In this document: in pieces, positions 17,497 through 57,614 of the stretch
Position numbering within the stretch: the stretch's first letter is position 1
How the letters are laid out: every line of letters starts with the position of its first letter
Assembly (NCBI RefSeq): GCF_900103505.1
Contig: NZ_FNIA01000020.1
Span: 1 to 57,614, forward strand
Reading direction: 5' to 3'
Length of the DNA: 57,614 nt
Source of the DNA: Haloarchaeobius iranensis
GTDB taxonomy: Archaea > Halobacteriota > Halobacteria > Halobacteriales > Natrialbaceae
The notes under the pieces: generated by a model
Databases searched by the model: none
What the model saw: the letters and a program-made list of their open reading frames with translations, nothing else
Told to the model about the DNA's origin: nothing
Program-made: the position numbers and the translations under genes

Positions 17497-17812
17497 CGCG
17501 AGAGCTTCGCTCTCGCGAGTCTGAGCGCGTAGCGCTCAGGCACCGCAGGGAGCACTAGAGGCTGGGGGGCATGCGGTGCGGTGCGGTCGCTGTCGGGTGT
17601 CCCCGTGAGCGAGCCTGCGAGCGAACGGGGGCTCGTCGGACCGTCGGTCCGACGGTGGGACTGAAAGGGGCGACGTGCTCGGCGTCTCCACGAGCGAAGC
17701 GAGTGGAGGCTCGGCAGACGGAGTCTGCCGGCGAACCCCGCCAAAGGAAGGACCGTGGTTCGAGAGAGCGAAGCTCTCTCGTCATCACGAAAGAGCGCGG
17801 AGCGCTCTTTCG
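17497..17812. repeat. Array of perfect tri-loop hairpins
   Basis: Six perfect stems are: 17497-17517 (9 bp, loop TTC), 17521-17539 (8 bp, loop GTA), 17634-17654 (10 bp, loop T), near 17713-17729 (GGCAGAC-GGA-GTCTGCC, 7 bp), 17761-17781 (9 bp, loop GAA) and 17788-17812 (11 bp, loop GGA). CTCCAC/GTGGAG around GAGCGAAGCGA lies between. Several contain GCGAAGC or its complement, a sequence known to form exceptionally stable mini-hairpins in DNA. Confidence 0.85.
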
Positions 17813-41819: not shown

Positions 41820-43097
41820 ATGGAGATACGGTTCCTCGGAGGCGCACGCGAGATCGGGCGGAGCGCCATCCTCGTCGACGACTCGCTGCTGCTGGACTAC
41901 GGGATGGCCTCGGGCAACCCGCCGCAGTATCCGGTGGACCAACCCGAGCCCGACGCCGTCGTCGTCTCCCACGGTCACCTCGACCACGTCGGCGCGGTCC
42001 CCTCCCTCCTGTCCGGCGACGAGCGCCCGCCCATCCACTGGACGCCGCCGACCGCCGAGCTGGCGCGGGTGCTCGCGCGGGACACGCTCAAGCTCCACGG
42101 CGGGAGCTACGACTGCCCGTTCACCGAGGCGGAGCTCAAGCGGCTGACCGAGGTGTCCCACACCCACGGCTACCGGCAGCCGTTCGAGGCCGCGGGCTAC
42201 GAGGTGACGTTCTTCGACGCCGGGCACATCCCCGGCAGCGCACACGTCCTCGTCGACAGCGCGGGACGAAGTCCCGCGGGCGATCGGACGCAGTCCGATG
42301 ACGACGGGGACACCCGACTACTGTACACTGCGGACTTCCACACCGAGGACCAGCGGCTCCTCGGCGCCTCCCGCGCCCGGCCCGACGCCGACGTCGTCGT
42401 CGTGGAGTCGACGTACTCGGACACCGAACGCGAGTCCCGCCCGGCCATCGAGCACCGGTTCGTCGAGAGCGTCACGTCGACGGTCTGGGAGGGCGGCACC
42501 GTCGTCGTCCCCGCGTTCGGCATCGGCCGCACGCAGGAGATGCTCTGCATCCTCGGCGCGCACGACGTGGACTGCTACGTCGACGGGATGGGCAAGGACG
42601 TGACCCGGCTGTTCCAGCGCCACGACGGCTTCGTCCGGGACGCCGAGACGCTCCGGCGCGGCGCGTCGAACGCCCGCTTCGTCACGGGCAAGCCCGGGCA
42701 GCGCGAGCGCATCGCGCAGAAGAACACCGTCATCGTCACCACGTCGGGGATGCTCCACGGCGGGCCCGCGATGGCGTACGTCCCCGAGATACGGTCGAGC
42801 CCGACGAACAAGGTCGCGTTCACCGGCTTCCAGGTGCCCGGGACGCCGGGCCACGAACTGCTCGAACGGGGCCGGGCCGAGTTCGACGGGCGCATCCTCC
42901 CCGTCGCGGCCCAGACCGAACAGCACGACTTCTCCGCCCACGCCGACAGCGACGGCCTCTGGGAGTTCCTGGGGTCCTACCGCGACGCACAGGTGCTGGT
43001 GAACCACGGCGACAACTGCGAGGACTTCGCGGCCGAGCTCGTCGCCGGCGGTTTCGACGCGGCGGCACCGCGGCTGGACGAGACGGTCGAGGTCTGA
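41820..43097 (+). CDS. Metallo-beta-lactamase/beta-CASP nuclease
   Basis: From ATG 41820 the product is 425 residues. The metal site is in VVVSHGHLDHVGAVPSLL (H-x-H-x-D-H), FDAGHIPGSAHVLVD and LYTADFHTEDQRLL; the beta-CASP part has VVVVESTYSD, PAFGIGRTQEML, FTGFQVPGTPGHEL and FSAHADSDGLWEFL. These enzymes process RNA or DNA ends (RNase J/CPSF relatives). Between HVLVD and GDTRLLY there is an extra SAGRSPAGDRTQSDD, encoded by two adjacent palindromes (42260-42299); the usual form appears to join directly. Confidence 0.88.
   Translation: MEIRFLGGAREIGRSAILVDDSLLLDYGMASGNPPQYPVDQPEPDAVVVSHGHLDHVGAVPSLLSGDERPPIHWTPPTAELARVLARDTLKLHGGSYDCPFTEAELKRLTEVSHTHGYRQPFEAAGYEVTFFDAGHIPGSAHVLVDSAGRSPAGDRTQSDDDGDTRLLYTADFHTEDQRLLGASRARPDADVVVVESTYSDTERESRPAIEHRFVESVTSTVWEGGTVVVPAFGIGRTQEMLCILGAHDVDCYVDGMGKDVTRLFQRHDGFVRDAETLRRGASNARFVTGKPGQRERIAQKNTVIVTTSGMLHGGPAMAYVPEIRSSPTNKVAFTGFQVPGTPGHELLERGRAEFDGRILPVAAQTEQHDFSAHADSDGLWEFLGSYRDAQVLVNHGDNCEDFAAELVAGGFDAAAPRLDETVEV
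42260..42299. repeat. Two palindromes inside the beta-CASP gene
   Basis: CGCGGGAC-GAA-GTCCCGCG (42260-42278, 8 pairs) and ATCGGAC-GCA-GTCCGAT (42283-42299, 7 pairs) stand in tandem, each with a G-N-A three-base loop. They encode a 15-residue insertion at a surface-loop position. The design is the same as in the non-coding array at 17497-17812. Confidence 0.85.
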
Positions 43098-57435: not shown

Positions 57436-57614
57436 ACAAGCTGTCTCGATAGCACGAAAACTTACTGATGCTGCGCTAATGCAGATCAGCCATCCAGCCG
57501 GCAACGGGGTTGCCGGCTGGAAGCACGCCGTCCTGCACTTTCTCCGGCTTCACATGGACGCAACGCTCCAAGAAGTCCTCGACTGGGCCGAGGAGATGGA
57601 GCGGGTACGAGCCG
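57407..57614 (+). CDS. IS5-type transposase, N-terminal part (cut by window edge)
   Basis: GTG 57407 starts VQKVLFRFVKQAVSIARKLT, followed by WKHAVLHFLRLHMDATLQEV and LDWAEEMERVRA, the N-terminal pattern of haloarchaeal IS5-group transposases. The catalytic part lies outside. The codons include a 12-bp perfect palindrome (57494-57520). The left inverted repeat of the element should be at about 57360-57400 but cannot be defined without the other end. Confidence 0.65.
   Translation, partial: MQKVLFRFVKQAVSIARKLTDAALMQISHPAGNGVAGWKHAVLHFLRLHMDATLQEVLDWAEEMERVRA
57494..57520. repeat. 12-bp perfect hairpin in the transposase gene
   Basis: CCAGCCGGCAAC (57494-57505), loop GGG and GTTGCCGGCTGG (57509-57520) pair perfectly. 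It encodes the HPAGNGVAGWK segment just upstream of the conserved WKHAVLHFLR. Confidence 0.85.

Follow-up and report, generated by a model that had tools for sequence, protein, structure and literature searches.

A 45-bp palindromic unit has been inserted, precisely and recently, into a beta-CASP nuclease gene of Haloarchaeobius iranensis, and this unit is very likely one copy of a dispersed element that has entered genes recurrently in haloarchaea. The stretch of DNA analysed (57,614 nucleotides of contig NZ_FNIA01000020.1, referred to as the window) belongs to a 3.77-Mb archaeal genome consisting of 73 contigs. The host gene (41820..43097, forward strand, as are all features below) encodes a beta-CASP metallo-beta-lactamase-fold RNA nuclease of 425 aa, assigned by Pfam matches to Beta-Casp (3e-15), RMMBL (2.1e-10) and Lactamase_B_2 (3.7e-9). 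Solved relatives of this nuclease include archaeal CPSF homologues, FttA and RNase TTHA0252, and homologs are present in 99 of the 101 family genomes.

The inserted unit (AGCGCGGGACGAAGTCCCGCGGGCGATCGGACGCAGTCCGATGAC) occupies positions 42258..42302 and encodes 15 aa in frame (SAGRSPAGDRTQSDD), these 15 codons being exactly absent in congeners. It has the structure AGC, hairpin 1, linker, hairpin 2 and GAC. Hairpin 1 (42260..42278; CGCGGGAC-GAA-GTCCCGCG) is a perfect palindrome with an 8-bp stem and a GAA loop, and hairpin 2 (42283..42299; ATCGGAC-GCA-GTCCGAT) is another, with a 7-bp stem and a GCA loop; between them lies the linker GGCG (42279..42282), whose consensus in our alignment of copies (A1) is AGCA. 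The unit is preceded by a GAC codon (42255..42257), the preferred insertion point judging from the bias of in-gene copies, and is followed by a GAC codon of the host gene (42303..42305). The initial annotation, made from sequence alone, had proposed two adjacent palindromes with GAA and GCA loops at 42260-42299, encoding an extra 15 residues that keep the frame between two strands. Both claims held, and the coordinates were exact; in an AlphaFold model, the insert forms a low-confidence loop with strands 141-146 and 166-170 on either side.

The covariance model R1, described below, matches the window at 42255-42302 with 67.9 bits. The predicted fold of the 48-mer consists of exactly hairpins 1 and 2, and only 1 of 200 dinucleotide shuffles was equally stable (z = -4.0 as DNA and -3.5 as RNA). 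The core of the unit, GGACGNAGTCC, occurs twice in the window versus 0.30 times expected, a count reached by 3 of 100 shuffles; this is modest evidence when taken alone, and it is the comparison with relatives that decides whether the insert is real. In the whole genome, the core occurs 46 times versus 11 times for the reversed pattern. Use of the core alone as a diagnostic mark was rejected because most of the occurrences that we read have stems of just 4 bp. The 45-bp unit sits within the gene without an ORF of its own and thus encodes neither tnpA nor tnpB.

In three congeners (G009, G069 and G037), whose proteins are 92-95% identical to that of the window, the site is precisely empty. The empty gene reads GTC GAC GAC GG(C/G) and the window reads GTC GAC, the 45-bp unit, and GAC GGG, when the insert is counted from AGC to GAC. 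An absence of about 45 bases in close homologs had been proposed as a check of the insertion, and the result was thus positive. Two more at 75% protein identity also lack the insert, and among the 72 family genomes examined the site is empty in 64 and filled in 8. Clean presence or absence of 45 bp was also found in the acetyl-CoA synthetase gene of one genus (of 30 genes, 8 are filled and one has a diverged copy) and in the aldehyde dehydrogenase (ALDH) gene of another, in which 3 genes are filled and the remaining readable ones are empty. Furthermore, the trpA gene of the same genome as the window (G000:C30:236919-236969, L289) carries a related 42-bp insert with two hairpins that is missing from congeners at 92-96% identity, and several other genera have different hairpins in the same loop of tryptophan synthase alpha (TrpA), one of them with a tandem hairpin.

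The eight filled family genomes include one with a single hairpin and one with a badly decayed copy. The seven other than that of the window each belong to a different genus and carry a related segment, or a remnant, at this position; a genome of another family (L224) is also filled. According to the initial annotation, its reading would be refuted by distant genera sharing the segment at one position, a condition that several other genera literally fulfil. In a maximum-likelihood tree of the beta-CASP gene built without the insert, however, the eight filled rows require 8 changes, at least six of which are forced by well-supported branches, and the number 8 holds throughout the bootstrap range. 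The filled copies are nested in clades of empty genes, with empty close relatives. The insertion points also differ, falling at three neighbouring codons: V|S for G038, VD|S for the window and IDD|S for the genome of the other family. The eight changes and the differing junctions together indicate that insertion recurred at this site; with the empty close relatives, they favour recurrent insertion over an ancestral loop. Elements of different genera at this site are closer to one another than elements at different sites (6.5 versus 9.2 differences; 2 of 2000 permutations as low), and part of the recurrence may therefore reflect horizontal exchange of filled alleles. The beta-CASP gene of G027 (L418) carries only hairpin 1 and the flanks at the same site, possibly a decayed or half unit.

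The consensus of the unit runs AGC, hairpin 1 (stem of approximately 8 bp), AGCA, hairpin 2 (7-bp stem, C-GNA-G loop) and GAC. Copies show a strong preference for GAC as the preceding codon, found in 21 of the 31 distinct non-kinase in-gene copies versus 7.8% of flanking codons, and nearly all of the other preceding codons are NNC. Most copies have GAC on both sides, and others have GTC or ATC on the left; lack of a target duplication is a mark of PATEs, discussed below. No target duplication longer than 3 bp was seen among in-gene copies outside histidine kinases. Over 12 bp, the left flank resembles the right end of the element slightly more than expected (12 of 500 permutations as high).

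Within genes, nearly all copies are read in one orientation and one frame. Sense frame 0 was scored by 70 of the 79 coding-like copies, and the exceptions look misassigned, artefactual or non-genic; the few antisense calls were automatic and mostly look like codon-position artefacts of GC-rich DNA. In 41 copies, frame 0 contains no stop and is the most hydrophilic frame (mean GRAVY -1.72), whereas another sense frame contains a stop in 25 of the 41 copies and the antisense frames encode more hydrophobic or more basic peptides (+0.49 in one of them). Selection after insertion can account for this bias, and directional insertion is not excluded.

The stems co-vary between copies. In 34 distinct in-gene copies, 96.9% of the stem cells are paired, 79 cells show a change in both partners versus 1 cell with a change in a single partner, there is one G-U pair, and none of 500 shuffles gave a covariation score as high. 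These copies were preselected, with at least six of the eight pairs required in hairpin 1 and the core of hairpin 2 fixed by the search pattern; because of this screening, fairer evidence comes from the set in which hairpin 1 was not required. In the non-kinase coding-like copies of that set, 321 of 360 cells of hairpin 1 are Watson-Crick pairs and 10 are G-T, and 133 of 135 cells at the free positions of hairpin 2 are Watson-Crick with no G-T. The encoded amino acids track the pairing across the arms of hairpin 1 (E with S, A with A and V with T). The stems vary between copies, yet their arms change together, indicating pairing at the DNA level. From the scarcity of wobble pairs we infer that selection on RNA is a less likely cause than base pairing in DNA or the use of one arm as a template for the other.

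R1, trained solely on the 34 in-gene copies, matched 108 of the 146 genomes of the order, with up to 39 matches per genome, and in a phylum-wide draw of 148 genomes all 18 positive genomes belonged to this order. Matches to a degenerate pattern were found in Halorubrum, Natrinema, Haloarcula, Halorhabdus, Halapricum, Halolamina and other haloarchaea. Bacterial matches to this pattern (e.g. Methylobacterium and Streptomyces), generally without a good hairpin 1, were excluded as chance, and the pattern was not found in IMG/VR viral contigs. In-gene copies reside in genes for acetyl-CoA synthetase, ALDH, a LeuC-like dehydratase, PolX, an FAD oxidoreductase, acyl-CoA carboxylase and many histidine-kinase N-boxes; carrier genes were named by eye from their protein sequences, the Pfam scan having been made for the beta-CASP gene only. 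A second proposed check, similar peptides at loops of other haloarchaeal proteins, was thus positive, in that other genes contain the same kind of unit. Further copies lie in intergenic arrays, so that the claim of elements both between and inside genes held throughout haloarchaea. Tandem copies step by exactly 45 bp (e.g. G104 1571283/1571328/1571373/1571418), and copies of equal score are found at scattered sites within one genome.

Several other matches deserve mention. The genome of the window contains weaker R1 matches (G000:C30:142370, C58:12403, C47:6574 and C46:68250; L285-L288), some of them within ORFs, such as one for acyl-CoA carboxylase (SSPGSQTQSGDDDD). The PolX-like genes of Natrinema versiforme and Haloarcula japonica (L101 and L153) carry different units in apparently the same loop. 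Units have landed repeatedly in the histidine-kinase N-box (N-[AS]-VEHG; L069, L070, L100, L127 and L250), where as many as four stand in tandem; here the 5' arm of hairpin 1 consists of host codons, and the VEHG codons are repeated 3' of the insert.

The same two-hairpin module is also present at the right end of tnpB elements. R1 matches these ends downstream of tnpB in reverse orientation (E 2.7e-11 to 3.6e-15), and in three loci the module overlaps the 3' end of the Rfam sot0042 omegaRNA. The in-gene unit is therefore kin to the right ends of haloarchaeal IS200/IS605 elements. Three features of such an end beside sot0042 (RF02656) are missing from the in-gene copies: tnpB, the outer stem and the TGAC-(A/C)TCCTCC segment at the terminus. 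A search for the Y1 transposase (PF01797) found none in four copy-rich genomes (G104, G165, G186 and G202; 29 to 34 copies each), a genome with 2 Y1 transposases has 1 copy only, and the Y1 matches in the genome of the window are partial. Either a present-day TnpA is not required or our search misses it; the distribution of Y1 versus copy number does not support TnpA as a necessary present-day mover.

The closest kin of the in-gene unit are the ends of haloarchaeal palindrome-associated transposable elements (PATEs) and IS605 elements, a kinship that is one of kind in the case of PATEs; the nearest in sequence are the right ends of haloarchaeal IS200/IS605 (tnpB) elements. PATEs, described in Haloquadratum in connection with haloarchaeal IS605-type ends, are mobile as judged by strain comparison and have a terminal-only form down to 52 bp (PMC3119063). 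Like the unit, they are haloarchaeal, lack a transposase and have palindromes related to IS605/tnpB ends. They are, however, described as genome repeats with near-terminal palindromes, and in-frame insertions of a fixed 45 bp in conserved enzymes do not appear to be described among them (PMC3119063). The claim that the family is unnamed thus held in part: it is correct for the in-gene units, but PATEs, which are of a related kind, do have a name. We found no description of in-gene palindromic insertions in archaea or haloarchaea in the full-text literature searched, which did not cover subscription papers.

Rickettsia palindromic elements (RPEs) are short palindromic DNAs found in frame within a wide range of unrelated protein-coding genes as well as in intergenic DNA. 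The resemblance to them that had been suggested held in part. The unit behaves like an RPE in its palindromic in-frame insertion into many unrelated genes and in having copies inside and between genes, but it occurs in another domain of life, is shorter, has two separate triloop hairpins and shows no demonstrated sequence relation, and it has not been shown to be an RPE. Bacterial REPs, GTAG- or CGTC-tagged palindromes with RAYT transposases, are short stem-loops, some of which lie wholly within ORFs; the GTAG type is tied to IS200/IS605-family enzymes, and CGTC families have loops of 4-5 nt (PMC3733652). Unlike REPs, the unit lacks GTAG at the hairpin foot, where the conserved AGCA and GAC are found instead (alignment A1), and it has triloops, many in-gene copies and no dedicated transposase that we could find. 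With regard to the Y1 enzymes, some copies adjoin tnpB, and several copy-rich genomes gave no PF01797 match.

We consider it likely that the unit represents a non-autonomous mobile palindromic family moved as single-stranded DNA in the manner of IS200/IS605; no transposition was observed, and the moving enzyme was not identified. In this view, a very short haloarchaeal palindromic element with non-autonomous mobile behaviour would have entered an exposed loop of the nuclease just 3' of GAC (or, elsewhere, a similar NNC codon), keeping the reading frame. An IS200/IS605-type process acting in trans, now or in the past, may recognise the unit as single-stranded DNA hairpins and move it in that form. 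Survival in genes is inferred to follow from a stop-free frame whose product is a very hydrophilic linker, landings of other kinds having been purged, and the 15 added residues probably bring the host protein neither benefit nor harm. As for the IS200/IS605-type chemistry considered by itself, the evidence leaves it slightly less likely than not; the GAC codons on either side might represent a duplication of 3 bp, and IS200/IS605 elements make no such duplication. A bolder reading, to which we give clearly less credence than to its negation, is that this is a selfish DNA family in which the fold and the reading frame, and not the sequence, are conserved. The stems of the family would be rewritten at the DNA level, both arms together, while a 45-bp stop-free hydrophilic frame passes through genes, giving haloarchaeal enzymes recurrent 15-residue loops independently of any resident transposase.

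Among the alternatives, an origin in replication or repair remains possible. A nascent strand would fold at the GNA mini-hairpin and copy its own arm without a transposase, and a template switch at GAC-like microhomology would yield perfect palindromes of varying sequence. Freely varying stems that stay Watson-Crick with almost no G-U intermediates are in keeping with this idea, as are the N-box case in which the 5' arm of hairpin 1 is host sequence repeated after the insert (L070), the slight excess of similarity between left flank and right end, and the copy-rich genomes without detectable TnpA. However, local templating alone is insufficient for the constant AGCA linker, hairpin 2 core, GAC and 45-bp length across genera and genes, and the scattered copies of equal score in one genome also speak against it. 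It is unlikely that true insertions at this site were few and that the filled allele then passed from genus to genus through homologous recombination at the host gene. The greater likeness of same-site elements is in its favour, but junction codons differ at the same site, many distinct genes carry copies, and in the gene tree the filled host genes mostly cluster by genus.

Two further explanations appear very improbable. An ancestral nuclease loop lost in most lineages would account for the related segments or remnants, similar in sequence, at the same place in seven other genera. However, it would need far more changes by losses only than the eight required as single gains, and it is opposed by filled copies within empty clades, three insertion points and the same unit in unrelated genes. 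A functional acidic linker under protein selection, with incidental palindromes, would agree with the single frame and orientation and the hydrophilic residues. Against it, the residues covary according to DNA pairing, most homologs lack the insert, and the module also lies between genes and at transposon ends.

Across their range, haloarchaea appear to have a system comparable to the in-frame palindromic insertion seen in Rickettsia and in some bacterial REPs. It affects working genes, among them those of core enzymes such as acetyl-CoA synthetase, LeuC and PolX, as well as TrpA, which carries a related unit. The inserted loops constitute recurrent indels in haloarchaeal protein alignments, and the findings bear on how transposon ends turn into protein sequence. 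Given the exact empty sites, the GAC target and the large number of congeneric genomes, the insertion route is testable in tractable haloarchaea.

Hairpins were also observed outside the units described above. At L152 and L193, hairpins with varied stems are joined by TAGCAG-like linkers into intergenic chains, which suggest larger arrays of the same building block. In the window, an intergenic cluster at 17497-17812 contains several short hairpins with unrelated stems, often with C-GNA-G triloops, only one of which is matched by R1, and weakly; this cluster is likely to be the between-gene form that the initial annotation had in mind. Two long perfect hairpins, with stems of 14 bp (113-145) and 13 bp (57493-57521), lie near the ends of the window.
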